Shown one piece after another: positions 39,420 through 64,000 of a stretch of 64,000 nt of DNA (positions within the stretch are counted from its first letter, which is position 1; every line of letters starts with the position of its first letter). The notes under the pieces were generated by a model. The model did no database searches. It was given only the letters and a program-made list of their open reading frames with translations, and was not told the DNA's origin. The stretch is from the NCBI GenBank assembly GCA_903859705.1, contig CAIONQ010000105.1, positions 1-64,000 of the forward strand. The letters run 5' to 3'. The translations under genes and the position numbers were made by a program. The stretch is from an uncultured Chthonomonas sp. GTDB lineage: Bacteria; Armatimonadota; Chthonomonadetes; Chthonomonadales; Chthonomonadaceae.

Positions 39420-41426
39420 TTACAGGGCTCGCTGCGATGCCGCTCGTGGGGCATCGTGATCATTTTTCAAACCCGATTTTGCAGTGTTGTACTGCACACT
39501 TTGCGGGTCGTCCTGTGGAACTTTCCAATAATCCATCAGCGCAGCAGCGATAGCATGGAATGCCGGAGCGGCCACCGTAGCGCCGTAGTGGGGGCCTGGT
39601 CCGGGCTCATCTACGACGATCATGATGACAGCTCGTGGTTTAACTGTTGGGCTTGCCGGCAGGTAGCCAATGAAGGACGAAGCATATTTCCCGGGAACAT
39701 ACTTTTTGGCAGTTCCAGTTTTACCAGCCACCCAGTAGCCTTTAACTGCCGCTGTTTTTCCTGTTCCCTTAGTAACCACATTGGTAAGCATGCCAGTAAC
39801 AAGCTGTGAGGTTTGTTCAGAAATTACTCGCCGAATTACGGATGGTTTGTGATCTACAACCACGTTACCCTGGGCATCAGTAATCTGTGTAACCAAACGT
39901 TGCTGCATTAGTAGGCCACCATTAGCAATTGCCGAATAAGCACGCACTACATGTGCGGGGGTAACCGCAATGCTATGCCCAAATGCCACACGCGCGATCT
40001 TGGCGATGCTGTTTTTATCCTCATTCACATCCATGGACCAGCGGCCATGCTGAGGCAAAGGCAGATCTATGTCTAGTTTGTCGAATAACCCAAAATCGGT
40101 ATCACCCTTTTTCAGTCGGGCTGCTCCCATAAGAACACCCACTTGAGCGGCGGCAACATTGCAACTGTGCTCGAGCAGTGAATTTGCGTCTACACTGCCA
40201 TGACCGTGTGCATCCCATGGACCATAAACTGGGCAGTGTATGAGCTTGCGGCCATAGCGGATGCTGCCAGAACAGGGGAAGTGGCTATTCATGTTGATGA
40301 CACCCTGATCCAGAGCAGCGGCAACAGTAAGACCCTTCAAGGTAGATCCGGGCTCATACAGTAACGTAGCACAGCGCTCACCCAGTCTATCGTCACCTTC
40401 TTTCGAAACAACGAGGTGAAGATCTTTTCGGGCTGCAGGGGATGGGTCGAATGTAGGCGTGCTAACCATTGCAAGCAAGTCGCCACTTGCGGGGTTTTCC
40501 ACAATGATGGAAACGCCTTTTGCCTTGTACAGATCCATAATATTCTTTGCCTGCTCAAGCGCAAGGTTTTGAATAAATGGGTCCAATGCAGTGGTGACAT
40601 TGTCACCATCGTGGCCAACTACGTCCCACTTTATCGTTTCTGGAAAGGGGCGACGCTTACGATCCAGATCAGCTTTGCCTTTGGATTCTGTTCCCGCAAG
40701 GTAATTGTTGCAAGCTCTCTCGATGCCAGCCTGCGGGTTATCGTTCTTACCAACAAAGCCAACCACCTGAGAGAATGCCGGGCCATCTGAGGGAGTGCGT
40801 TCGGTTTTATCTTTTACCGTAAACCCAATTACCCGGTAAAGCCCTAACTTTGGCTTCTGAGCAAAGTCTGGCGATGTTCGCCCTTTGATCACTCTGCACT
40901 CGTCGAGGCTGAGATGGTCTTTTATTGAATAGAAACGTTTAACCTTGATCTTGTCGGTTGGTTTGCCAGCGGCTTTTAGCTTTGCGAGTACGATGTCCTC
41001 CTGGCGCAATGAGTCGGCTTTAATGTCGTTGATCTCTTTGGTGAGATCATCTGTGCTAACGCCAAGCATTGGTGCAAGGAACTCAATGCTGTGCGTTAGG
41101 GCTGCTTCGTTTCGCTCGTGTATCTTGTTAGTTTCATAGTGGTTGAACGGGTAGGGATCAAAACCCAGTTCGCCAATATAGGTGCTGGAGGCAAGTACCT
41201 TGCCATCACGATCAAGAATAGAACCACGGATGCCGATGCTGCTGAGAGGACCAATTTTTGATTCGTCGGCTTCTTTACGAATTTCTGAGCCGTGTCTCAG
41301 TTGAAAGTAGCCGCATCGCACTACCAACACTGCATATGAAAGCGCAAAGAGCCCTCCAATTGCACTAATTGGGGGTATCTGCCAACTCTGTTTCCTTCGT
41401 TTTTTATTGGGCACAGTAGTTCTCAT
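39420..41426 (-). CDS. ftsI: septal transpeptidase FtsI (class B penicillin-binding protein)
   Basis: 668 residues. Single N-terminal membrane anchor (about 20-40), then a PBP dimer domain beginning RGSILDRDGKVLASS. The transpeptidase box has the active-site serine in STLK (361-364), SCN at 421-423 and KTGT at 569-572. It cross-links septal peptidoglycan and partners with FtsW. No PASTA repeats follow. It is downstream of the ftsL-like gene and upstream of the internal terminator. Confidence 0.96.
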   Translation of the reverse strand: MRTTVPNKKRRKQSWQIPPISAIGGLFALSYAVLVVRCGYFQLRHGSEIRKEADESKIGPLSSIGIRGSILDRDGKVLASSTYIGELGFDPYPFNHYETNKIHERNEAALTHSIEFLAPMLGVSTDDLTKEINDIKADSLRQEDIVLAKLKAAGKPTDKIKVKRFYSIKDHLSLDECRVIKGRTSPDFAQKPKLGLYRVIGFTVKDKTERTPSDGPAFSQVVGFVGKNDNPQAGIERACNNYLAGTESKGKADLDRKRRPFPETIKWDVVGHDGDNVTTALDPFIQNLALEQAKNIMDLYKAKGVSIIVENPASGDLLAMVSTPTFDPSPAARKDLHLVVSKEGDDRLGERCATLLYEPGSTLKGLTVAAALDQGVINMNSHFPCSGSIRYGRKLIHCPVYGPWDAHGHGSVDANSLLEHSCNVAAAQVGVLMGAARLKKGDTDFGLFDKLDIDLPLPQHGRWSMDVNEDKNSIAKIARVAFGHSIAVTPAHVVRAYSAIANGGLLMQQRLVTQITDAQGNVVVDHKPSVIRRVISEQTSQLVTGMLTNVVTKGTGKTAAVKGYWVAGKTGTAKKYVPGKYASSFIGYLPASPTVKPRAVIMIVVDEPGPGPHYGATVAAPAFHAIAAALMDYWKVPQDDPQSVQYNTAKSGLKNDHDAPRAASQRAL

Positions 41427-41488
41427 CTGGCCGTCCTCAACGCTTTCTGCACGCCAGTTCCATCTGGCGGCACCTTCATCGTTTCTCG

Positions 41489-41932
41489 TTAGTTCAGATC
41501 AATAGTTGCTTTCTCATTGGGCCTTACCATTTTATTTTTGGTTGCTTCGGCTCCTATGGATTTGGCCGTAACTTTTTGAGAGTACTCTTGCTCGATAAGG
41601 TTGTGCTGCGCGTTAGTGTTGAAGTTTTCCCGAACAGCCGCTTCGTATGCAAGCTTTTCGCCGTTCAGTTGAACCGATTGAAATATGCACAGCATGCCAA
41701 CAGCACACACAGCAATGGTAGTTAATATTGCTGATGTAGCCCACGGAGTTGCAACCTGCTTCACGCTGATAGTCTGAGGTTCGAACCGGGTTGATGGTTG
41801 CCTTGCGGGCTGTTGAGCAGGTTCTGGGCGCTCTTCAGGCTTGCTAACCGCAACTGCGGCAATGGCGTGCCGAGAAGAGGATGAAGAGTTAATATGCAGG
41901 TTTTGTTCGCCCAGTCGTTTAAGTTCACTCAT
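41489..41932 (-). CDS. ftsL: FtsL-like division protein
   Basis: 147 residues. A polar, Pro/Gln-rich N-terminus of about 65 residues, one membrane helix (TSAILTTIAVCAVGMLCIF), then a short helical segment (LNGEKLAYEAAVRENFNTNAQ...LIEQEYSQKV) that could form a coiled coil. Sequence identity to known FtsL is not recognisable; the call rests on size, topology and position between rsmH and ftsI. The cytoplasmic part is longer than in most FtsL proteins. Confidence 0.65.
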   Translation of the reverse strand: MSELKRLGEQNLHINSSSSSRHAIAAVAVSKPEERPEPAQQPARQPSTRFEPQTISVKQVATPWATSAILTTIAVCAVGMLCIFQSVQLNGEKLAYEAAVRENFNTNAQHNLIEQEYSQKVTAKSIGAEATKNKMVRPNEKATIDLN

Positions 41933-41958
41933 GGCAGCCCTCCGCTCACATCCGATGT

Positions 41959-42951
41959 TCAGATCTTTTCGGCCCCTCTGAGACGAGCGCTTCTCGCTCT
42001 CGGGTTTTCTCGCACTTCTGCATCAGTTGGCAGAAGCGGTTTCCGGGTGATTACCCGTAAATCTGCTGCATTACCAGGATCTGGCATTGCCAGCGCCGCT
42101 ATCGACATTCCTGAGGGGGCTGGTGTTCTGCCCGACCTTCGCATAAATATGTCTTTGACGATTCGATCTTCTTGAGATTGAAAGCTGATCACGGCGATTC
42201 TGCCGCCAGGTATCAGGTTATCGATGATACTGTTCACGCCTGCCTGAAGCTGCTCCATCTCCCCATTGCAGGCAACGCGCAATGCCTGCATCGACTTTGT
42301 GGCGACGTGCTTTTCGGTGGGCCAATCTGAGCGTGGCACTGCCCGCTCGATTATCTGCACCAACTGGCCCGTGGTTGTTATCGGGCCCTGCTTCGTGCGG
42401 GCTTCAACCAGAGCTCGGGCAATGCGGCGAGAGTGCCTTTCATCGCCTAATTCCCAAAGGATGTTAGCCAGTTGCTGCTCAGTGCTTGTAGCAATGATGT
42501 CTGCCACGGTTGGTTCAGAGCCCGTTCGGTTCATCCTGCCGTCCAAAAAATCGTTTCTGCGAAACGAAAATCCCGGTGCATGATCCATTTGGAGAGATGA
42601 AGCTCCTGCGTCAATTAACCCCGCATCGATTGCGATCTTCTCGCCTTCATCTTGTAATTCTTGTAGCACCGCATCCAGGCGGCTAAACTCCGTGTGTCTG
42701 GTTATTATTCTAATCTGACTAGAATACGGTTTTAGCCTGTTGCGGGCTATCTCAATGGCGGCTAAGTCTCGATCTAGGCCCAGCAATGTGCCTCCAGGAG
42801 ATATCAGTTTTGCCATCAATTCGCTATGACCGCCCAGGCCCAGGGTCGAATCAACTGCGGTCATACCGGGCTTAAGGTTGAGAAGCTCAAGCACTTCTGC
42901 CGGCATCACCGGCCTGTGGATTTCTCCTGGAGGAAGGTCGGGTGCTTCCAT
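41959..42951 (-). CDS. rsmH: 16S rRNA m4C1402 methyltransferase RsmH
   Basis: 330 residues. HRPVMPAEVLELLNLKPGMTAVDSTLGLGGHS carries the SAM-binding loop; DAGASSLQMDHAPGFSFRRNDFLDGRMNR corresponds to the family D-G-S-S-Q-L and F-S-F segment; C-terminal ITRKPLLPTDAEVRENPRARSARLRGAEK is typical. It N4-methylates C1402 in the ribosomal P site. Second in the mraZ transcript, as in most bacteria. Confidence 0.96.
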   Translation of the reverse strand: MEAPDLPPGEIHRPVMPAEVLELLNLKPGMTAVDSTLGLGGHSELMAKLISPGGTLLGLDRDLAAIEIARNRLKPYSSQIRIITRHTEFSRLDAVLQELQDEGEKIAIDAGLIDAGASSLQMDHAPGFSFRRNDFLDGRMNRTGSEPTVADIIATSTEQQLANILWELGDERHSRRIARALVEARTKQGPITTTGQLVQIIERAVPRSDWPTEKHVATKSMQALRVACNGEMEQLQAGVNSIIDNLIPGGRIAVISFQSQEDRIVKDIFMRRSGRTPAPSGMSIAALAMPDPGNAADLRVITRKPLLPTDAEVRENPRARSARLRGAEKI

Positions 42952-43013
42952 GCTTATGCCATTCTCCCTCTGCTCGGGGCCTGGATGGCGTACTGGCCAT
43001 CGCCATTCAGGCT

Positions 43014-43511
43014 TCAGGCGGCCTCATTATTTGCATTTTTGGCCATCTCGGCCATTCTTGTTTGAGTAGCTGAGCGAACCGTCTCATCGGTGAAAGTGGT
43101 TTCAGCGTAAGCTAGCCAGGTAGCTTGGCTCCAGATCTCCACTCGGTAACCGCTGCCAAAGATTGCAACAGGCTGATTTTCTGAAATCTGAGCCCATTCG
43201 CGCAGGTACTTGGGTATAGTAATTCTGAATTGTGTATCCAGCGATACGGTGTCGGAGTTTCCCACCATGCGCTGGAGCATCGCGGAGTTGCTGTCAAACT
43301 CATCCGCAACGGATCGGCTGGCAAAAAGCGTGAGTATCTGCTCGAATACCTCTTTGGGGTATGCGCGTATGCTGCGATTTGGGCCCATGGTCAGGATGAA
43401 TTCCGTTCCAAGGAGCGACCTGAAACGCGCTGGCATCACGAATCTGAACTTTTCATCAGTGCTGTGATCTGAGCGTCCGTTCATTGAGCTCTCTGCAAGG
43501 GTTGTTGACAT
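43014..43511 (-). CDS. mraZ: MraZ transcriptional regulator of the dcw cluster
   Basis: 165 residues with two SpoVT-AbrB-like halves: DHSTDEKFRFVMPARFRSLLG (residues about 16-36) and SLDTQFRITIPKYLREWAQI (about 90-110). The first half shows the DEK-x-R-x-x-x-P-A-R-x-R pattern expected of MraZ. A short N-terminal extension and C-terminal helix are extra. MraZ binds arrays of short G-rich repeats and controls its own operon; such an array lies immediately downstream of the mraZ promoter here. AAAGGAAG lies 11-12 nt before the ATG. Confidence 0.92.
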   Translation of the reverse strand: MSTTLAESSMNGRSDHSTDEKFRFVMPARFRSLLGTEFILTMGPNRSIRAYPKEVFEQILTLFASRSVADEFDSNSAMLQRMVGNSDTVSLDTQFRITIPKYLREWAQISENQPVAIFGSGYRVEIWSQATWLAYAETTFTDETVRSATQTRMAEMAKNANNEAA

Positions 43512-43658
43512 CGACTGGGTACTTCCTTTCGGCGCCTTTCGGCTTCGAAAGCAAAATCATCGGCTGGCAATTCATAAGGATCTGCAGAGCGCCGGGGTGA
43601 CGTCCATCACTCTGCATATCTTCGGAAAATCAAGGTGGTAAACAAAGGTGTGCAGGTT

Positions 43659-43683
43659 CCCCTGTTTTCCCCCGCTTTACCAC
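43659..43683 (-). promoter_or_regulatory. candidate MraZ operator: three boxes at exact 10-nt period
   Basis: On the minus strand GTGGT starts at 43683, GGGGG at 43673 and AGGGG at 43663, each followed by A-rich sequence (GTGGTAAAGC, GGGGGAAAAC, AGGGGAACCT). The array covers about +3 to +27 of the predicted mraZ transcript. In E. coli MraZ binds TGGGN repeats spaced at the same 10-nt period (established for that species); binding here is inferred. Confidence 0.65.
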
Positions 43684-43692
43684 GACGATTTC

Positions 43693-43722
43693 ATTATAGA
43701 TGTCTGATTTAGTCTGTGTCAA
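43693..43722 (-). promoter_or_regulatory. sigma70-type promoter of the dcw cluster (mraZ)
   Basis: Consensus -35 TTGACA (43722-43717) and -10 TATAAT (43698-43693) on the minus strand, 18-nt spacer. Start point near 43686, giving a leader of about 175 nt before mraZ. A perfect hexamer pair is rare by chance. Confidence 0.85.
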
Positions 43723-43811
43723 CCCAGAATCAGGCCAAATAGGAGCTAGGGCCCACTTTTATGCTGTTTTTAACGAAAATGGCAAAAATTTGCGGTTTTA
43801 TTGCTCTGTTA

Positions 43812-43847
43812 GTGGGTGGAAGTGGAATTCCGGGGGAGTTTAGGGGA
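43812..43847 (+). promoter_or_regulatory. second G-box array: four boxes at exact 10-nt period
   Basis: GTGGG at 43812, GTGGA at 43822, GGGGG at 43832 and AGGGG at 43842, all on the plus strand. Spacing and content match the array at the mraZ start but the orientation is opposite, about 90 nt upstream of the mraZ -35 box. Confidence 0.55.
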
Positions 43848-44025
43848 AGTGTTCGGTCGGTTTTGGTGGTTATTTATCGTTAAATCATTCAAAATTCTGC
43901 CGACTCTTTCGCGAATCATAGCATTGAAAGCCAATGCAACCCGCCGGCCGTCTAGAATTCGTGAGGTTATGGCTCATCAGCTGGCTTACGCTTGCTGAAT
44001 GCAAATTCAACAATTTGCGGTACTC

Positions 44026-44053
44026 GGGGGAATTTTGTGGAATTAGGGTGGGG
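44026..44053 (+). promoter_or_regulatory. third G-box array: three boxes at 11-nt period
   Basis: GGGGG at 44026, GTGGA at 44037 and GTGGG at 44048, followed by AATT or AAAAC. The middle box GTGGAATT repeats that at 43822 exactly. The spacing is 11 nt, not 10. The array lies about 100 nt upstream of the DUF5679 gene promoter. Confidence 0.4.
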
Positions 44054-44146
44054 AAAACCGATCCACCATGATGAAATAACCCTGCGGCTGGGTGTGAACG
44101 GCATATCTTCGAACCCTGTTACGCATAAAATGCAGGTTACACAGGG

Positions 44147-44175
44147 TACACAGTGGCGAAACTGCCGTGTATAAT
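44147..44175 (+). promoter_or_regulatory. promoter of the DUF5679 gene
   Basis: TACACA (44147-44152) and a consensus TATAAT (44170-44175) with a 17-nt spacer. The start point would be near 44182 and the leader about 150 nt long. Confidence 0.6.
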
Positions 44176-44181
44176 GTGCGG

Positions 44182-44333
44182 GAATAACACGTTGGGCAGT
44201 AAGTGCCCGGCAAACAGAACGTTAGAGTTACCTAAAACCTGCACGGGGGCCGATAACTCGGGCTCACAGATTGCAGGAAAAATGTGATGAGCCGTTGAAC
44301 GGCCTGTCATCAACTCTCAAGGAGGGACTGGAC
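44182..44333 (+). promoter_or_regulatory. folded 5' leader of the DUF5679 gene
   Basis: Consecutive stems are visible: GGGCA/TGCCC near 44194; an outer CCTGCA/TGCAGG pair (about 44239-44279) enclosing CCGA/TCGG; and GATGA/TCATC enclosing GCCG/CGGC (about 44286-44312). The last one ends just before the ribosome-binding site AAGGAGG, so folding could affect translation. I do not recognise a known riboswitch. Confidence 0.4.
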
Positions 44334-44474
44334 ATGGAAGCTTACTGCGTAAAGTGCAAAGCCAAGCGAGAAATTAAGAACGCTCAGGCCACAACTATGA
44401 AGAACGGCAAGCCCGCAACCACCGGCGAGTGCTCTACCTGTGGTACCAAGGTGTTCAAAATCGGCAAGGCCTGA
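44334..44474 (+). CDS. small zinc-ribbon-like protein, DUF5679 type
   Basis: 46 residues from the ATG at 44334, 8-9 nt after AAGGAGGG; upstream in-frame starts lack such a site. MEAYCVKCKAKREI and GECSTCGTKVFKIGKA give two CxxC pairs about 30 residues apart, the pattern of a zinc ribbon, with KNGKPATTGEC as the family-like centre. DUF5679 proteins are widespread and uncharacterised; nucleic-acid or ribosome association is often suspected because of the size and charge. Its leader is structured and its promoter lies in the divergent region shared with mraZ. It converges on a candidate ncRNA. Confidence 0.8.
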   Translation: MEAYCVKCKAKREIKNAQATTMKNGKPATTGECSTCGTKVFKIGKA

Positions 44475-44619
44475 GAGGCCTACAAACCGCTTATATGGGG
44501 TTTTTCTGTCAAGGCTGCGCTCCAGTAATATCGGAACGCAGCTTTTGTTCTGTTTTACCCCGCACTGTATGTGGGGTGTGCTGCCCTGGCCCACGAGTTG
44601 GAACCGGGACCAAAGCAAA

Positions 44620-44649
44620 CAGTCCGACACTGTAGCCAGTGTCGGACTG
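44620..44649 (-). terminator. 13-bp hairpin at the end of the ncRNA candidate
   Basis: CAGTCCGACACTG (44620-44632) pairs perfectly with 44637-44649 around a 4-nt loop. On the minus strand it is followed by TTTGCTTTGG, a moderate T-tract. It could also stop transcripts from the opposite side. Confidence 0.65.
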
Positions 44650-44811
44650 CTAAGGCAGATCAGGACGGTTGCCCGTTCATGACCAGTCGGCGAAGGCCTG
44701 CCATTATTCTCCCATTGGGCGATTCTGGAGGCGCCTCAGGCTAAAACAGGCTAGTTCGCCTGTCCACCTCGTTGACTAAAATTCATGCTAGTCACCACCT
44801 CCTTCTTTGTC
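44620..44811 (-). ncRNA. candidate structured non-coding RNA of unknown class
   Basis: About 190 nt between a strong minus-strand promoter (44846-44818) and a hairpin terminator. Internal stems, minus strand: TGACTA/TAGTCA (44794-44773), ACAGGC/GCCTGT (44763-44746), GGC-CTTC-GCC near 44697, ACGG-GCAA-CCGT with a GNRA loop (about 44676-44665), and GGCAG/CTGCC closing the last domain. A good Shine-Dalgarno (AAGGAGG) stands 11 nt before ATG and an 11-codon frame (MNFSQRGGQAN), so a leader peptide is an alternative, but no gene follows on this strand before mraZ. It does not show the hallmarks of 4.5S, RNase P or tmRNA. I cannot rule out a known Rfam family such as raiA or 6S. Confidence 0.5.
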
Positions 44812-44817
44812 AATTCC

Positions 44818-44846
44818 ATTTTATCCAAGACCCTGCAACTTGTCAA
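44818..44846 (-). promoter_or_regulatory. sigma70-type promoter of the ncRNA candidate
   Basis: Minus strand TTGACA (44846-44841) and TAAAAT (44823-44818), 17-nt spacer, giving a start point near 44811. Confidence 0.75.
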
Positions 44847-44905
44847 TAGTTGGCTTTTCAGGGCCTCAATCATAGCGGCACTAACTGTATCGGAAGGAAC
44901 AAACT

Positions 44906-46084
44906 GTGAATATCAGGCTCATTGGTGAAGATGAAGTTCAGGATGCTTACTACCTCAGCGCACAGGCTTTCCGGTGCGGCACACGTGATGACAATTTTGC
45001 TGTTAAGCGCCAGGCAGATGCCGATAAACCAGACACGGTTGGCATCGGTGTGTATGACGACGCCGGCCTACAAACCAAAGTAATGGTAATCGCCTACGAA
45101 GAGGTGTTTGAGGATAAGTTTGTGGCACCCATGGGCGGTATTGGGGGTGTTGCGTGCTTACCAGCCAGCCGAGGTAAAGGCTATGCGGCCGCTGGCCTGA
45201 AGTATGCTCTGGAGGTGATGAAAGACAGTGGCCAGTATCTATCTGCACTGTATCCGTTTTCCTGGGCATTCTACAGAACGCTTGGTTGGGAGTGGGTAGG
45301 GGTACAACGCGAATATAAGGTTCCTGCTGCAATTCTAAAGTCTGTTCCTGAAACGGAAAGCGTGCGTGAAGCAACTTCTGCAGATCGGCCTGCTATTGCC
45401 AAAATCTATAGCAAATATTGCCAGCGCTACCGTGGTATGGCTGCTCGGGATTTACGTGCATGGAACCGGTTGCTTAACCACCGTGAGGGGAATTACACCT
45501 ACACATATGTTTATGAGGGCCCATCAGGGCTTGAGGGTTACCTCACGTTTAGCGGAATGGACCGTGATTCGACATTTATTAACGAGTTCATCGTACTCAA
45601 CACCACGGCACAGAAGGCACTGTTGGGGCTGCTGAAACGGCACGACATGCAGGTTAAGAGCTTCCGGTGGAACGCTCCAGACAATGATCAGTTCTGGTCG
45701 ACTTTCTACCATAACGACCTTTCCACGTCTATCAGCACTGTAACGCAGGGCAGAGTTGTGGATGTGGCTGCAGCGCTTTCTGCACTTAAGCCGGGCCTTG
45801 CGGTGAGTGGCAAGGTTGCTGTAGGAATCACGGATACTGCCGCCCCATGGAATACCGGAGTGTGGCAGATTGGGGTGGAAGCCGGAACCGTGACCGCGAC
45901 CCAGGCCGGGAGCGAGCCCGATATCAGCCTGGATATTCAGGCGTTTACCCAGGCATACTACGGCACGCCTTCGTTGGCAGCTGTACGCGAACATAGTGGC
46001 GTTGCTGTATCCTCTGAGCGCGCATTTGCGCTGTTAACAGATCTGCTTGATGGACCACCAATGTGGCTGAATGATCACTTCTAA
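44906..46084 (+). CDS. Eis-like GNAT N-acetyltransferase with SCP2-like C-terminal domain
   Basis: 392 residues from a GTG preceded by GGAAGGA. The first ~150 residues form a GNAT domain; the acetyl-CoA loop is VACLPASRGKGYAAAG near residue 85, followed by SALYPFSWAFYRTLGW. A second GNAT-like domain and an SCP2-type tail (from about residue 290) follow, as in mycobacterial Eis. The protein ends MWLNDHF; in Eis the terminal carboxylate of a Phe acts in catalysis (known for M. tuberculosis Eis), consistent with this ending. Eis proteins acetylate aminoglycosides or other amines. The next gene overlaps it by 14 nt, linking it with an ABC exporter. Confidence 0.85.
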   Translation: MNIRLIGEDEVQDAYYLSAQAFRCGTRDDNFAVKRQADADKPDTVGIGVYDDAGLQTKVMVIAYEEVFEDKFVAPMGGIGGVACLPASRGKGYAAAGLKYALEVMKDSGQYLSALYPFSWAFYRTLGWEWVGVQREYKVPAAILKSVPETESVREATSADRPAIAKIYSKYCQRYRGMAARDLRAWNRLLNHREGNYTYTYVYEGPSGLEGYLTFSGMDRDSTFINEFIVLNTTAQKALLGLLKRHDMQVKSFRWNAPDNDQFWSTFYHNDLSTSISTVTQGRVVDVAAALSALKPGLAVSGKVAVGITDTAAPWNTGVWQIGVEAGTVTATQAGSEPDISLDIQAFTQAYYGTPSLAAVREHSGVAVSSERAFALLTDLLDGPPMWLNDHF

Positions 46085-46898
46085 TCACTCAAAAACCTGG
46101 CAGCTCATTCGTTTTCTTAGGAAAACTCGCGCCACCGCCGCCATGGAGGCCACCTCCATAAGCGGCGAGGGCGCGCTGTTCCTTGTTCGCTGGTTATTAA
46201 GGCTTTTGCGTACGGCGGCACTCATCGGCATCTGGAATCAGCTTGGGGCCCAGAAGCTGGGAAGTGCCGGAGCAACAGCTGCTCAACTTGGCGCGTATAC
46301 GGTGCTTTCCGAAGCACTTGGTGACGTGCTGAGGATGAGAACTGGCATGGAATTTGCCTTCTTTAACGGCAGCGTGGCACTGAGGTTTTTGCGTCCATTT
46401 GGAATTTTGCAGCAATTCGCTGCGGAGTGCCTGGGGCGTGCTGCCCTCGGCGGCATCTGTTTTGGCTTGCCATTAATTGCAGGGGCAGCATTGTGCGGCG
46501 TGCATCTCGCCCCGGTATCCGGCTCGGCATTAATTTGGTTTGCTTTAAGCCTTCCGCTTGCCGCTGCTACGGGCCTGGCACTGGAATACATGCTAATAGG
46601 AGTAGGCACGGCGTACGGGTTTCACCCATACACCGTTAATAATGTTCGTGAGGCAGCGTTTGGCGTGCTATCCGGCGCATTTATCCCCCTGGCGCTGCTT
46701 CCCACCACGGTTGCTAAGGTTGCATCACTGCTGCCATTTGCATCGCAGGCAGCCGCCCCTCTGGAGATATACACGGGATTGGGTGACCCACGTACGTTGG
46801 TTGCGCTTCAGCTGTTCTGGACCACTACGCTCTGGATAGCCACGGCCGTGGTGTGGCGCTGGAATAGAGAGAAACTGGTGCTATATGACGGTGGTTAA
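46071..46898 (+). CDS. ABC-2 type exporter permease (COG4587-like)
   Basis: 275 residues with about six hydrophobic helices (for example FLVRWLLRLLRTAALIGIW, LGGICFGLPLIAGAALCGVHL, ALIWFALSLPLAAATGLALEYML). It matches the ABC-2 permease subfamily whose members come in pairs with an ATPase of COG4586. The ATG lies inside the end of the eis-like gene, and the second permease begins 14 nt before this one ends. Substrate unknown. Confidence 0.78.
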   Translation: MITSNHSKTWQLIRFLRKTRATAAMEATSISGEGALFLVRWLLRLLRTAALIGIWNQLGAQKLGSAGATAAQLGAYTVLSEALGDVLRMRTGMEFAFFNGSVALRFLRPFGILQQFAAECLGRAALGGICFGLPLIAGAALCGVHLAPVSGSALIWFALSLPLAAATGLALEYMLIGVGTAYGFHPYTVNNVREAAFGVLSGAFIPLALLPTTVAKVASLLPFASQAAAPLEIYTGLGDPRTLVALQLFWTTTLWIATAVVWRWNREKLVLYDGG

Positions 46899-57734: not shown

Positions 57735-59387
57735 TTAATCGCGGATAACAGTTATCCTTGCATCCGGAGTTGCGTACTTTACAGTTTGGCGGTAACCATC
57801 TGGCCACCGGATCTGCAGAGTTATCGGGGAGTTACAGCTTCCAAGCCCAAAATGCGCAGCGGGCAATATACCGGATAGCACGCTTCCGCTTGTTCGTACT
57901 TCCCGCAGTAATTTTCTTCCTTCAAAATCTGCAGTTACTGTTGCCCCAAGGCCCGCACTATTGGCCGGATGCTTTTTATCGAACAGAGCAACTTCCAACC
58001 AGTGCCCGGTGCCAGGCGATATGTTGTGCAGCAGCAAAGCGCGCCCTTCAAGATCGACTATGAGGGCATCCAGCTTCCCATCGTGGTCATAATCTGCAAC
58101 GGAAAGACCGCGACCAACCAGAGTGAGCCCATGTAATCCCGAACCCGCAGTTACATCTTCATAGTGACCCGCCCGGTTGCGAAACAGTTGAACTGGCTGA
58201 GCATACTGCTGAGCGCTATCAACCTGATGAACGTTATCTCTGATGTGCCCACTTGCCAACACCAGGTCTAACCACCCGTCGTTATCAAAATCGGCAAACT
58301 GCGCGCCAAACTTAACATACGTCATAGTTGCCGCAGAAAGGCCCGCTGGCCCGCTTACGGATGTGAAGATGCCTGCACCATCGTTGTGATACAGGGAAAC
58401 TGGCTGAGAGGCGTAGGTTGTAACTAGAAGATCAAGGCGGCCATCGTTGTCGTAGTCTCCAGAGTCCACAGCCATGCCACCCTGCACATGTCCCTGTCCA
58501 TCGTACGCCGTGCCGGTTGCCGCCCCCTCGTTAACTAACGAACTTGAATTCGCGTGCCGAACCCAGAAGTCGCCTGGCATCATGTCGTTGGCTTCATAGA
58601 GCGCCGATGTTCCCGTTCCCGTTAAATCGGAGGCCAGCACTCCCCACGTTTTGCCGTTATCGTTCCACGGTAGCAGTTTGAAGTGCCTGCCATCTATGTT
58701 CTTAAAGAGCATGCCGTGAAGTGCCGGGTACACTTCTGGCCCGCAGGCAGATTGCAGTTTGCCTACAAGGCATGTTTGTTTACTCCCTTGAGCTGGATCG
58801 AATTCAACATATTGAGAAACAAACAGATCCAGGCGGCCCGATCCGGTAATCTCCGCAAAGGCAGCGCTCATGCTCCAGGTTAGCCCGGAAATTCCAGCCT
58901 CCGTGGTTGCATCCTTGAACTTACCACCACCCAGATTTCGGTACAGGGCACAGCAGTGGTAGCCGGTTACAAACAGATCCTGGCGGCCATCACCATCATA
59001 ATCGCCCACCGTGCAGCCCATCCATACGCCATCTTTTATCAAACCAGAACCTGAAGTTACGTCGCGAAAGGTTCCATTCTGTTCGTTATGATACAGTGCA
59101 ACGTTATGCGGGCCAACAAGTACAATGTCGGGCCAACCATCGTTGTCATAATCAAAGAAGGCGCATCCTCCACCAGCTGTTTGCAGAATTGAAAGCGGAG
59201 ATTTACCGTGGTTGGTGAGTGAGAACGCGATACCTGCAGAACTGGATGCTGGTTGGAACTGGATGGTTGCTGCCTGCGTTAAGATAGGTGCAGGTGGTGT
59301 AGGGTGTGTTGTGTCCGTGTTTCTACAGCCGGCAAATATAAACAGTGCTGCAAGCATGCACCAAGCTGATCGCAGTACTGAAATCAT
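57735..59387 (-). CDS. FG-GAP/VCBS repeat lipoprotein with ASPIC/UnbV C-terminal domain (CRTAC1-like)
   Basis: 550 residues. A lipobox (FIFAGC, Cys about 21) marks it as a lipoprotein. Repeats of the integrin-like beta-propeller type are spelled out as FFDYDNDGWPDIVL, DYDGDGRQDLFV, DSGDYDNDGRLDLLV, DFDNDGWLDLVL and DYDHDGKLDALI, with the calcium-binding D-x-D-G-x-x-D pattern. The last ~80 residues (LEVALFDKKHPANSAGLGATVTADFEGRKL... ITLQIRWPDGYRQTV) are the ASPIC/UnbV domain. Such proteins are exported and of uncertain function. Last gene of the operon, overlapping the TPR gene by 4 nt. Confidence 0.88.
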   Translation of the reverse strand: MISVLRSAWCMLAALFIFAGCRNTDTTHPTPPAPILTQAATIQFQPASSSAGIAFSLTNHGKSPLSILQTAGGGCAFFDYDNDGWPDIVLVGPHNVALYHNEQNGTFRDVTSGSGLIKDGVWMGCTVGDYDGDGRQDLFVTGYHCCALYRNLGGGKFKDATTEAGISGLTWSMSAAFAEITGSGRLDLFVSQYVEFDPAQGSKQTCLVGKLQSACGPEVYPALHGMLFKNIDGRHFKLLPWNDNGKTWGVLASDLTGTGTSALYEANDMMPGDFWVRHANSSSLVNEGAATGTAYDGQGHVQGGMAVDSGDYDNDGRLDLLVTTYASQPVSLYHNDGAGIFTSVSGPAGLSAATMTYVKFGAQFADFDNDGWLDLVLASGHIRDNVHQVDSAQQYAQPVQLFRNRAGHYEDVTAGSGLHGLTLVGRGLSVADYDHDGKLDALIVDLEGRALLLHNISPGTGHWLEVALFDKKHPANSAGLGATVTADFEGRKLLREVRTSGSVLSGILPAAHFGLGSCNSPITLQIRWPDGYRQTVKYATPDARITVIRD

Positions 59388-60598
59388 TGGCGAACAGGTT
59401 GTGGTGTATCAAGAGTTTGCAACCATCGTTTCAACACGGCATGCGCTGGCTCAATCTCGAGGCCAGACTTAATTGCCGAAATAGCGCTAACTCGATCTCC
59501 AAGGATCATATAGCTATCGGCCATCTTCATGTACGCAGTCACATCTTTTGGGTTATCTGCAAGAGACGCTCTGGCCTGATCTATCTTACGATGGATTGCA
59601 GTGCGGTTTTCATACATTTTCATCATCTGCGCAGAAGCTGCCGCATTACCGAGGTGTCTTTCCGTTTGCCCTAATGCAAAGTAGATTTCATCTTGCTGGG
59701 GTGATGATTCTATAGCCTTCCTCAAATAACGCTCTGCGGCATCCCAGTGGCCTCGGAGCATCTCTACTTTGCCGCGCTGGTAAGGAAGCAGTGGATAATC
59801 GGTGCTCACCTGCTCTATGCGGGCGATAGCTTCTTCCGCGGTGGTTGTATCCGCATCGGACCGGTGCTGTTCCAATAGTAGGTTAACCAGCCCGCTCTGG
59901 ATTTTAATGTCTTTTGGAGCGCGCTTTGCGGCTTCTATGCGCGTGGTAATGCCCTCATCCACTCTACCCAATGCAACAAGAATGCTGCCATGGACGGCCA
60001 TGTACTGTGGATTGCCCTGTGATAGGGAAAGTGCCTTCTCTATTTGAGAGTTAGCATCGGCGGCTTTTTGCATTTGAAGGCTGCTTATGGCCATAGAGTA
60101 CCACGCGTCATCTGCCTTCGGATCTAACTTAACAACCAGTGCAAGTTCATCCATGGCGTGCTGGTAAGAGGCTCTTTTCATATAGAGCCTTCCCAGAGCC
60201 CGATGTGGAGCTACGGAGTTAGGGTGTGCCAGAGCCGCCTGCTTCAGAACCTGGAACGCTTCAGGAATCCGGCCTTGCGACATCCAGAGTTCGCCAAGCC
60301 CGGTTGCAAGTGCGGCATCTGCAGGGTTGAGTTGATGCGCTTTAATCAATGCTGGCTCGGCAGAGCCAGCTGCGCCATCTTGCGCCATTCTGAGTGCAAA
60401 CACCTTCCAGGCAACCTTGTTATTCTGTTCGCGCTCCAGCACCTGTTCCAGAGCAACGCGTGACATGCTTTCATAGCGCTTCTCGCTGTTTCCTGGGCGG
60501 TACCACCAGATAACTGTTAGGGCTCCTATCGCCAGAAAGATAAGTATTACAAAGCTTGCTGCGCGGCCGGTACGTGGTTTGTCGGGTGTGATTGTCAT
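59384..60598 (-). CDS. membrane-anchored TPR protein
   Basis: 404 residues. One N-terminal membrane helix (ASFVILIFLAIGALTVIWWY, about 14-33) precedes about nine tetratricopeptide repeats (for example LGELWMSQGRIPEAFQVLKQAALAHPNSV, LGRLYMKRASYQHAMDELALVVKLDPKAD). TPR arrays are protein-binding scaffolds; here it probably organises the cytochrome and FG-GAP proteins. It overlaps the FG-GAP gene and the cytochrome gene by 4 nt each (ATGA and ATGT-type junctions), so all three are co-translated. Confidence 0.85.
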   Translation of the reverse strand: MTITPDKPRTGRAASFVILIFLAIGALTVIWWYRPGNSEKRYESMSRVALEQVLEREQNNKVAWKVFALRMAQDGAAGSAEPALIKAHQLNPADAALATGLGELWMSQGRIPEAFQVLKQAALAHPNSVAPHRALGRLYMKRASYQHAMDELALVVKLDPKADDAWYSMAISSLQMQKAADANSQIEKALSLSQGNPQYMAVHGSILVALGRVDEGITTRIEAAKRAPKDIKIQSGLVNLLLEQHRSDADTTTAEEAIARIEQVSTDYPLLPYQRGKVEMLRGHWDAAERYLRKAIESSPQQDEIYFALGQTERHLGNAAASAQMMKMYENRTAIHRKIDQARASLADNPKDVTAYMKMADSYMILGDRVSAISAIKSGLEIEPAHAVLKRWLQTLDTPQPVRQ

Positions 60599-61788
60599 TT
60601 AAATGTGTTAACGGCTGGGCCCAATGTTGGGTTTTTTCTCATTGTGCCCATTCCGGGCGGCGAAATCAAGTGATCGGCCATTTTTGCAGGCACCGACGTG
60701 AGCGGGAAAACTGTTTTTGGCCGCATGTGGCACTGTATGCAGTTCTGTTTTGGGCTTACGGGGCAAGGCTTTGAAGTGCGGACTGCTGCTCTGGTTGCTG
60801 CATTTATACCCTCTAACGCGCCTCCGTGGCACGATTTACAAACTCTCTCATAGGGTGGCTTGTCATCGGACACATTCTGGTGAGGATCATGGCAGAAAAG
60901 GCAAGATAATGGCTCATTATCTTTTGTTCGGCAGCTGCTGCGCTGCAGTGCGTAAGGCTGAAATCGATGCGTGAGGTTTACTTCCGGCGTATCCAGGTCA
61001 ACGGCGTTCGCCGTTCGGTGGCATTTGCCGCACATTTCGTTGAGTCTGGAGGGAGGGCGCTTACCCAGTTTTTCCATTTTTAGATCTGACGAAGCAGATT
61101 TCACAGCCTCGATATGCGCCTTGCCAGGGCCATGGCATGATTCGCACCCAACTCCGTAAAAGCTTCGTGCAACTTGCAGCCCCTGCACGGGGAGGGCGGT
61201 TGTGTGGCACCCAAGGCACATCCTGCCTTCAGTCGTGGGGTGCTCTCTGCCAAATGGCCTGTCGTTTTCGGTATGGACCTCTTGCCCGGGAGTTTTCTCC
61301 CAGAGTTTATATGGCGGGAAGTAGCTCATTTTAGTTTCCATAAGCTGTTCCCCGGTTATGGAGACGTAGGTTACTCCAAGCTTTCCTGAGCCGAGCGCGT
61401 AATTTAGCTGTCTTTTCTCGAGTGCATCACCCTCGCCTCGCCTTAGCTCAAAGCCCTCACCCTTCGCATCTATGGCATATCCTGCAAGGGGAACAACACC
61501 CGTTGGCGGTGTAGCAGGGCCGAGGCCCGAGATGGTAGCCGGGCGTAACGAAGTATCGTGAAAGCTGTTGTGATGAGCCTTATATTCCCGTTCATGGCAG
61601 GGCAGGCAGGCATCATTTCCGGCAAATGCTGGGTCCATTGCGGGCTGACCTGCTGATACTGAGGCAGACTGGTTTGCTCCCTTGCAGCCAGCAGCCATCA
61701 GTACGCATAACAGTGGGGCAATCAAGAACAGCCCAGCCATTGCAAGCTGGATAACAGGCGAAGCAGGTTTTTTTGTGCAGAACTTCAT
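60595..61788 (-). CDS. heptaheme cytochrome c lipoprotein
   Basis: 397 residues from the ATG at 61788, chosen because the signal follows at once and AAGAG stands upstream; longer readings add a Cys-rich region unlike a signal. A lipobox (LMAAGC) anchors it. Seven CxxCH heme sites: CLPCH, CLGCH, CESCH, CGKCH, CLFCH, CKSCH and CIQCH. It should be an electron-transfer protein on the outer face of the membrane or in the periplasm. The arrangement resembles the cytochrome c554-like and decaheme-lite families, but I cannot name the enzyme. No oxidase or reductase subunit is adjacent. Confidence 0.85.
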   Translation of the reverse strand: MKFCTKKPASPVIQLAMAGLFLIAPLLCVLMAAGCKGANQSASVSAGQPAMDPAFAGNDACLPCHEREYKAHHNSFHDTSLRPATISGLGPATPPTGVVPLAGYAIDAKGEGFELRRGEGDALEKRQLNYALGSGKLGVTYVSITGEQLMETKMSYFPPYKLWEKTPGQEVHTENDRPFGREHPTTEGRMCLGCHTTALPVQGLQVARSFYGVGCESCHGPGKAHIEAVKSASSDLKMEKLGKRPPSRLNEMCGKCHRTANAVDLDTPEVNLTHRFQPYALQRSSCRTKDNEPLSCLFCHDPHQNVSDDKPPYERVCKSCHGGALEGINAATRAAVRTSKPCPVSPKQNCIQCHMRPKTVFPLTSVPAKMADHLISPPGMGTMRKNPTLGPAVNTFK

Positions 61789-61808
61789 GGCACTCTTGAG
61801 TGGTGTAA

Positions 61809-63065
61809 CTACTTGCCAGCCGTAGCCTTTGCAGTATTGGCTTTGTCGGTTTCTTGCTGATCTAGCTTTTGCAGAGCCTGCGTGCGAAGCTCCTGATATC
61901 GGCGGGCATCTGCCGCACCGCACTGGTGGCAAAGGTTAGCCGCCTGGGCTATTCTTCCGGCTGCTGCTAGTTTCTCTGCCGCTGCTCGCTTTACCAGTGG
62001 GTCGGTGGCGGCGCGTGCCGATTTGTTTGTGGCTTCCAAATCTGCAGCGTCGAGAGGTGTTTCCAGTGCCAGTCTCTTGCGCATGGCAGAGGCAGCCGTG
62101 TGGTTCCCGGTGCTATCCTCTATGGTTGCCAGCATCGCAAGGCAATCTGGATCGAGTGCAGATACTTTAAGACCCTTTTCCAGCGCCACTTTTGCCAGAT
62201 GAGGCTCATTCATTGCAAGATATACCCGTGCCACAGGCACCTGAGCTTTAGGCAAACCGCACTTTGCGGCGGCCTCGGCATAATAGAGTGCATGGCCAAG
62301 CGACTCTGGGTCGTGGTTTTGCGCCAGCATCATCATCGCAAGAGGTGCTCGTACCTGATACATATCGTACATTGGCGAAATCTTGATTCTGCCAAGCATC
62401 ATGGAGAGCGCATCGTTGTACTTGCCGAGTTTTACTGCAAGCTTACTCAATGGCTCATAGAGGGCATCCTGCGTAGGATCAATATTCAACGACCTGATTA
62501 ATTTGTCGTATGCCTCTTCTTCACGACCAACGTCGGCAAGAGCCTGTGACCATATCTGAACATTTACGCGCACATCTTCTTGTTGCTTACGTGCCCTATC
62601 AATCTCTTCAAGCCCTTCATCCAGAAGACCGGCCTGAATCAGGATCGTGCCTGCTGTTGCGTGCCCTTCCGCGTAGCCAGGATTTAGTTTGCATGCTTTG
62701 AGGTTTGCTTCGAGGGCTTCTGAAGCATGCCCGCAACCCGCAGCTGCAATTGCCAGTCCACGCCAGGCAGGGTATGATTCCGGGCTTTGCTTCACCGTTT
62801 GCTTCATCACAGCGTAGGCTTCGGCATACCTGCCATCTCCTACCAGCTTTCGGCCCAATATTAGGTCTCGTTCGGCATCGCCTGGCGACTTTTTTGCCTC
62901 CGCAAGTAACTCCTCTGTAGTTGCCTTCTGGAGGAAACGGGCATGCGCATCCCGGTTCATGGCGGTAAAACCCACCCCAACGGCCAGAATAGCGGCACAT
63001 ATGCCGACAATGCGCAAGTTGCGCTCTCTCTGAAAAGATATCGGGTTAGACTGGTACTCGCTCAT
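61809..63065 (-). CDS. membrane-anchored TPR protein
   Basis: 418 residues. One N-terminal helix (IVGICAAILAVGVGFTAM, about 19-36), then about nine TPR-like repeats (EAKKSPGDAERDLILGRKLVGDGRYAEAYAVM and similar) and a charged tail. Homologous in plan to the TPR protein at 59384. It overlaps the upstream FG-GAP gene by 4 nt and lies 20 nt before the cytochrome gene. Confidence 0.85.
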   Translation of the reverse strand: MSEYQSNPISFQRERNLRIVGICAAILAVGVGFTAMNRDAHARFLQKATTEELLAEAKKSPGDAERDLILGRKLVGDGRYAEAYAVMKQTVKQSPESYPAWRGLAIAAAGCGHASEALEANLKACKLNPGYAEGHATAGTILIQAGLLDEGLEEIDRARKQQEDVRVNVQIWSQALADVGREEEAYDKLIRSLNIDPTQDALYEPLSKLAVKLGKYNDALSMMLGRIKISPMYDMYQVRAPLAMMMLAQNHDPESLGHALYYAEAAAKCGLPKAQVPVARVYLAMNEPHLAKVALEKGLKVSALDPDCLAMLATIEDSTGNHTAASAMRKRLALETPLDAADLEATNKSARAATDPLVKRAAAEKLAAAGRIAQAANLCHQCGAADARRYQELRTQALQKLDQQETDKANTAKATAGK

Positions 63066-64000
63066 TGTTCTTTTATCGTTATATCGCCGGGCACGTGTGG
63101 GTTTTTGATCTCTGTAGTTTTACCATCTGGCCACGCCACTTTGATACAGTCCACATGGGTAGCTTTGTCAAGGCCAAAGTGCAGTCGCGGATCGCTTGCG
63201 GAGAGATAGCTGCCGCCGGTTGTACACTCAGCGCTCCAGGACTCTGAACCAGATTTTACAGTAACGTGTGCTCCAATCGCCATGCGGTTGCAGGTTGTGC
63301 CAACAAGCGATATTCTGAGCCAGTTATTGTGGTCCTCTGTGTGGTTAATCAGCACCCTTAAGTTGCCTTCCACATCCGTAACTACGATATCAACCAGTCC
63401 GTCATCATTAAGATCACCTGTTGCGAGGGCACGTCCTACAGCAGGCTTTGTAAATCCCGTTCCAGCTTCCAGGGTGCGATTGGCAAACGTTTTACCGCCG
63501 TCGTTTATAAACAGCTGAAGTGGTTGTGCATAAGAGCCAAGTTTATCTATTTTGGCCTGATTGTCGTGAATGTGCCCGTTGGCAATGGCAATATCAAGCC
63601 AGCCATCATTATTTACATCGATGAATTTAGTGCCGAAGCCCACAAAGTTTGAGGTAGCCGGGCCGATGCCGGTTTGTTGACTGCTGATGTTAAAGAGGGT
63701 GCCTTCACCATTGCGATACAGGCTCTTTTGTTCAAATTCAAATGTGGTAACAAACAGATCCGGGCGGCCATCGTGGTCATAATCTCCAAAGTCCACTCCC
63801 ATAGCACCCTGCATTTGCCCACTGCCAGACATACCAACACCGGATTCCACTCCTGTACTTCGGAACTTACGTCCCTTTTCAGTATGGGTGCCCAGGTTAA
63901 TAAACAGGTCCCCAGGCATTTCGTCGTTTCCCAGGTACATATCTGGCCAACCATCTCCGTTCACATCGGCAAATGCTACACCCAGTGTTTTGCCACGTGC
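63062..64000 (-). CDS. FG-GAP/VCBS repeat protein with ASPIC/UnbV domain (5' end beyond the window)
   Basis: 313 codons visible, open to base 64000, so the start lies beyond. Repeats FADVNGDGWPDMYL, DFGDYDHDGRPDLFV, DVNNDGWLDIAI and DLNDDGLVDIVV, then an ASPIC/UnbV tail (LRISLVGTTCNRMAIGAHVTVKSGSES...CIKVAWPDGKTTEI). It resembles the protein at 57735 over the shared region, so the operon is bounded by two paralogous propellers. GTG at 63964 is an internal valine codon, not a start. Confidence 0.85.
   Translation of the reverse strand, partial: ARGKTLGVAFADVNGDGWPDMYLGNDEMPGDLFINLGTHTEKGRKFRSTGVESGVGMSGSGQMQGAMGVDFGDYDHDGRPDLFVTTFEFEQKSLYRNGEGTLFNISSQQTGIGPATSNFVGFGTKFIDVNNDGWLDIAIANGHIHDNQAKIDKLGSYAQPLQLFINDGGKTFANRTLEAGTGFTKPAVGRALATGDLNDDGLVDIVVTDVEGNLRVLINHTEDHNNWLRISLVGTTCNRMAIGAHVTVKSGSESWSAECTTGGSYLSASDPRLHFGLDKATHVDCIKVAWPDGKTTEIKNPHVPGDITIKEQ

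Follow-up and report, generated by a model that had tools for sequence, protein, structure and literature searches.

Five open reading frames occupy the minus strand at 57735-64000 of the window, by which we mean the whole 64,000-nucleotide stretch that was analysed; it makes up positions 1-64,000 of the 166-kb contig C105 in a draft genome of 6.2 Mb. As an initial reading made from the letters alone (the sequence-only reading below) had reported, they lie in the order FG1-TPR1-CYT-TPR2-FG2 and encode an FG-GAP/ASPIC protein, a TPR protein, a lipoprotein with seven CXXCH motifs, a second TPR protein and a second FG-GAP/ASPIC protein. These genes and two further ones on the continuing contig are:

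FG2: 57735-59387, minus strand; 550 aa, CRTAC1-type FG-GAP/ASPIC lipoprotein that closes the operon; Pfam FG-GAP_3 and UnbV_ASPIC above cut-off
TPR2: 59384-60598, minus strand; 404 aa, TPR repeats and an N-terminal membrane anchor; TPR models, transmembrane segment 13-31
CYT: 60595-61788, minus strand; 397 aa, seven-heme c-type cytochrome lipoprotein; 7 CXXCH, Cytochrome_C554 and Cytochrom_c3_2 above cut-off
TPR1: 61809-63065, minus strand; 418 aa, TPR repeats and an N-terminal membrane anchor; TPR_19, transmembrane segment 17-35
FG1: 63062-64000, minus strand, extending outside the window as far as contig position 64804 (start at Met12) or 64837; CRTAC1-type FG-GAP/ASPIC lipoprotein; FG-GAP_3 and UnbV_ASPIC
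TPR0: contig C105 64806-66104, beyond the window; third TPR gene, directly upstream of FG1
DUF1559 pilin-like gene: contig C105 66235-67107, beyond the window; upstream of TPR0

For CYT, the ATG at 61788 was preferred over an upstream TTG. The 4-nt overlaps previously noted at three junctions are seen as ATGA at FG1/TPR1, CYT/TPR2 and TPR2/FG2, and they suggest co-translation; TPR1 and CYT are separated by 20 nt. The stop codon of TPR0 lies one base ahead of the Met12 codon of FG1, and when FG1 is started at Met12 it has a normal lipoprotein signal of 25 residues. Judged by this layout, the whole locus is a single predicted six-gene operon, TPR0-FG1-TPR1-CYT-TPR2-FG2. The operon had been described as mirror-like; because TPR0 lies upstream of FG1 it is not a mirror, and the apparent symmetry was produced by the edge of the window. 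The sequence-only reading had also suggested looking upstream of position 64000 for the start of the operon and for additional genes; additional genes are there (TPR0, then the DUF1559 gene), and FG1 is not the first gene of the operon. The neighbouring ORFs include no recognisable GH, TonB or porin gene.

The gap of 130 nt between TPR0 and the DUF1559 gene contains a strong hairpin. A DUF1559 pilin-like gene precedes most TPR-FG pairs, and the gaps at L002 10106-10235 and its equivalents in L014, L015, L017, L018 and L122 hold strong hairpins that are unrelated in sequence from one gap to the next and are possibly terminators or attenuators. The DUF1559 signature is reminiscent of Armatimonadota.

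The FG-GAP/ASPIC and TPR proteins

Membership of the CRTAC1 / ASPIC-UnbV FG-GAP family, defined by an UnbV_ASPIC domain together with several FG-GAP_3 repeats, is evident for both FG proteins: the UnbV_ASPIC domain scores 69.1 bits in FG1 and 50.9 bits in FG2 (curated Pfam cut-off, 23.4), and each protein has 5-6 FG-GAP_3 stretches above the curated cut-off. The family profile of the FG proteins matches the solved cartilage acidic protein 1 (CRTAC1; 9etn) with an E-value of 1.5e-31; the structure of FG2 predicted from the single sequence has a mean pLDDT of 34. FG1 and FG2 share their repeats and ASPIC domain with that family, but they are bacterial lipoproteins whose genes belong to TPR operons, and in the window operon a seven-heme cytochrome is added. 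ASPIC proteins are encoded in all 17 genomes of the family to which the window's genome belongs, with 3-14 copies where the genome is at least 87% complete, and the literature that we found assigns no bacterial function to ASPIC/CRTAC1 FG-GAP proteins.

At 37% identity over 573 aa, FG1 and FG2 are clear paralogues, as had been proposed. A recent tandem duplication was ruled out, since their orthologues in two related genomes (G006 and G013) are ~55% identical to them, compared with the 37% between FG1 and FG2. The TPR proteins had likewise been called paralogous, but TPR1 and TPR2 are 29% identical over 100 aa, a likeness such as exists between TPR proteins generally. The proposal that all products look exported is borne out in the lipoprotein-like FG1, FG2 and CYT, each of which has a lipobox cysteine on inspection of the sequence, whereas TPR0, TPR1 and TPR2 instead have one N-terminal transmembrane segment each. 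Elsewhere in the same genome, on contig C170 (L016 12197-16000), an FG/ASPIC gene adjoins genes that, from sequence appearance only, are sulfatase-like and radical-SAM sulfatase-maturase-like.

The operon in relatives

A relative from another genus of the same family (G006) carries the full TPR0-FG1-TPR1-TPR2-FG2 order without a cytochrome gene, and a second one (G013, also from another genus of the family) has FG1-TPR1-TPR2-FG2, again without the cytochrome, on a contig that ends just past FG1. No match to CYT was found in either genome. The FG2 orthologue ends the operon in both. A third genome, G014, has TPR0-FG1-TPR1 followed by the end of the contig; its FG1 is 67% identical, so that FG1 orthologues in the three genomes range from 55 to 67%. 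Orthologues of TPR1 follow FG1 in all three, and those of TPR2 adjoin FG2 in G006 and G013 and adjoin CYT in G005, a genome of the same genus in which TPR0-CYT-TPR2 lies on a continuous contig without FG genes or TPR1. The G005 cytochrome is the sister of the window's CYT in the CYT tree, with a support of 100.

Since the operons of G006 and G013 are free of the cytochrome, the operon in which CYT occupies the TPR1/TPR2 junction also exists without it. With FG genes in turn missing from G005, the cytochrome is optional and the five-gene order, which had been taken to represent a fixed complex, is no conserved unit. The paralogues do not fall into separate operons in relatives, an outcome that the sequence-only reading had considered: the orthologues of FG1 and FG2 share one operon in both G006 and G013. 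The simplest account of these gene orders would be that CYT was inserted between TPR1 and TPR2 of a pre-existing TPR/FG operon in this genus and that the FG genes were lost later in G005; alternatively, CYT may have been lost from the same junction in the other genera. The natural presence and absence of CYT in otherwise orthologous operons provides a ready-made comparison.

Linkage of cytochrome, TPR and FG genes within and beyond the phylum

At an E-value below 1e-60, CYT is found in 17 of the 291 genomes of the phylum. Its commonest gene partner is a TPR gene, which lies within 3 kb of 17 of the 47 CYT genes and, at several related loci, immediately precedes CYT. An FG/ASPIC gene lies within 5 kb of 13 of the 47, where ~1-4 would be expected; the binomial p for this excess is between 1e-10 and 6e-5 at assumed background rates of 2.6-8%, a range estimated from how densely FG genes occur; CYT copies in tandem are not independent observations. 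Cytochrome and ASPIC genes therefore do occur together, contrary to one way in which the sequence-only reading might have failed, and proximity is also seen in Bacteroidota and Granulicella. Co-occurrence at the level of whole genomes was dropped as evidence, given the presence of ASPIC proteins throughout the family. The other 34 CYT genes, some of them on short contigs, lack an FG neighbour at a distance of up to 5 kb. On the CYT tree, FG linkage is scattered and has switched 11 times or more, so that it has been gained or lost many times. The commonest form in the window's own genome is an FG/TPR operon without any cytochrome. In a further genome (G024, contig C4, L106 8175-13684), five genes for seven-heme cytochrome lipoproteins form a tandem array on one strand.

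The window's own genome also contains, on contig C128 at 41379-46542 (L019 3380-8543), a gene for a membrane-multiheme-TPR fusion with an FG/ASPIC gene immediately behind it. The fusion protein has 1105 aa, about five hydrophobic segments, C-terminal TPRs, four CXXCH motifs, an invariant CX4CH, and, in its membrane part, near-invariant His101 and His171. Homologues occur in 11 of the 291 genomes, and in 10 of 10 relatives an FG/ASPIC gene lies immediately 3' of the fusion gene on the same strand. The fusion protein and CYT have in common only a weak c554 signature, which makes the former, for the most part, an independent example of this combination. The pair of fusion and ASPIC protein is probably a better experimental entry than the window operon.

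A single-protein scan of genome contigs yielded only two distant Bacteroidota loci; in an order of Bacteroidota, a CYT homologue is present in 15 of 291 genomes. Besides L050, 13 of 14 loci there encode seven-CXXCH proteins of ~615-690 aa (about 640) with a C-terminal extension, which consists of TPRs in all three proteins scanned by Pfam, and the fourteenth (L146) encodes a longer protein with eight CXXCH. No FG gene is found among the nearest genes at these 14 fusion-type loci. At L050 and L051, a separate CYT gene adjoins one for a long FG-GAP/ASPIC protein, and genes that appear from their sequences to be SusC- and SusD-like precede them.

In the acidobacterium Granulicella tundricola, plasmid pACIX902 carries a seven-heme homologue (30% identity) between a TonB receptor gene and a TPR gene, and a CRTAC1 gene adjoins the TonB receptor. 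The cluster resembles the window operon in having CRTAC1 and TPR genes near the seven-heme homologue, and it differs in its TonB receptor, its mixed orientations and its surroundings of GH30, GH88 and alginate lyase genes. No TonB/SusCD or CAZyme genes were recognised beside the window operon, and it does not qualify as a polysaccharide utilisation locus. A second Granulicella plasmid, pACIX901 (L159 6837-16737), has three CRTAC1 genes, genes for a five-CXXCH TPR protein and a cytochrome c, and a TonB receptor gene, with GH88 adjoining.

TPR proteins pair with FG/ASPIC proteins on the one hand and with multiheme cytochromes on the other; both pairings are well supported by these gene arrangements, and the three-way combination of TPR protein, propeller and cytochrome is, on the same grounds, recurrent but facultative. 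Comparable combinations of scaffold, propeller and multiheme protein in at least three bacterial phyla point to a little-described envelope redox module. The reading that we prefer, with a probability of roughly 0.55, is that the operon encodes a modular redox system of the envelope, with TPR proteins that would dock the heme protein and the CRTAC1-type propellers. Where the sequence-only reading had proposed a single envelope complex for electron transfer, some electron-transfer assembly in the envelope may plausibly exist, but a single fixed complex is unsupported because the five-gene order varies. The cytochrome might instead be a passenger, with expanded and rearranging CYT and FG/ASPIC families meeting by recombination at TPR genes and having no joint function. 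We consider this possible but doubtful: it would accommodate the cytochrome-free operons of G006 and G013, the FG-free TPR0-CYT-TPR2 of G005, the repeated changes of FG linkage on the CYT tree and the majority of CYT genes without FG neighbours, but it sits less easily with an adjacency that is seen repeatedly, in three phyla and more often than the local background would give, with three overlaps suggestive of co-translation, and with a different multiheme-TPR protein that keeps its ASPIC neighbour in every relative. The recurrent linkage of FG/ASPIC genes to TPR scaffolds and multiheme cytochromes makes the modular redox system a testable hypothesis.

The cytochrome and its possible role

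With seven CXXCH motifs and a lipobox at Cys35, CYT fits its earlier description as a heptaheme cytochrome lipoprotein. All seven motifs are invariant across 63 homologues from its own phylum and Bacteroidota, which excludes their chance occurrence. The Cytochrome_C554 domain scores 34.2 bits (Pfam gathering score, 20.8) and Cytochrom_c3_2 is likewise above its cut-off; together with the CXXCH motifs, the former places CYT among multiheme c-type cytochromes with a Cytochrome_C554 domain, and no NCBIfam model scored above cut-off. A CYT profile matches 6r2q (which we take to be MtrA), 6i5b, cytochrome c554 (1bvb) and MccA (4rkm), and weakly an eight-heme nitrite reductase, with all matches confined to stretches rich in heme motifs; similarity to tetraheme cytochrome c554 or to HAO/NrfA enzymes is local and not full-length. 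CYT thus has the c554- and c3-type Pfam domains of the c554/MtrA/MccA class and differs from it in its seven hemes, its lipobox, and conserved N- and C-terminal regions outside the named families. The structure predicted from a 3-sequence alignment has a mean pLDDT of 31.

Outside the motifs, the only histidines conserved in the 63 homologues are H225, H303 and H373, plus H77 outside Bacteroidota, so that at most about four of the seven hemes have a conserved distal histidine; the remaining hemes may be open or have variable distal ligands. Open hemes, together with the profile matches to cytochrome c554 and (weakly) the nitrite reductase, would suit a CYT that is not a wire but a catalytic oxidoreductase of the c554/hydroxylamine-oxidoreductase/nitrite-reductase type, with the other proteins holding it and its substrate. 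The same pattern would arise, however, if distal ligands differed from subgroup to subgroup, and the confined matches include MtrA-like electron-transfer proteins; we regard a catalytic CYT as improbable.

In the modular redox system, the TPR proteins would serve as membrane docking scaffolds, one of them probably holding the cytochrome, since cytochrome and TPR are fused in Bacteroidota. Electrons would pass along the CYT heme chain, and the CRTAC1-type propellers would be either the target of the redox step or binders of an external substrate or partner. Other loci provide analogies for the two ends of such a path: the C128-type variant suggests electron exchange with the membrane quinone pool, and the TonB/SusCD-like and glycan-degradation neighbours in two other phyla, though not at the window locus itself, suggest surface handling of polymers. 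More tentatively than for the window operon, we can envisage a general module in at least three phyla, built from separate genes or fusions, that would lead from the quinone pool to a surface propeller in the acquisition or modification of polymers; if true, it would be the first functional setting for bacterial CRTAC1/ASPIC proteins.

A family search of the six operon proteins found no porin-cytochrome conduit of the MtrCAB type (beta-barrel porin with MtrA- and MtrC-type cytochromes), and none was recognised among the neighbouring ORFs. In a published analysis (PMC12758564), CRTAC1 FG-GAP genes adjoin hydrazine-synthase-like genes, some of them encoding c554 domains. Like the window operon, those clusters combine a CRTAC1-type FG-GAP gene with genes for heme proteins, in part of c554 type, but Pfam and NCBIfam scans found no hydrazine synthase (HZS) alpha or beta-gamma subunit in the six operon proteins, and here the constant partner is a TPR protein. 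Our literature search, which most subscription papers lay outside, found no paper on FG-GAP proteins with multiheme and TPR proteins, nor on CRTAC1 with a TonB-dependent receptor. In two relatives, a VKOR-DsbA-like thioredoxin fusion is encoded between TPR and cytochrome genes (L066 3302-4480, checked by Pfam, and L068 10803-11975), which suggests disulfide formation for the TPR/cytochrome module.
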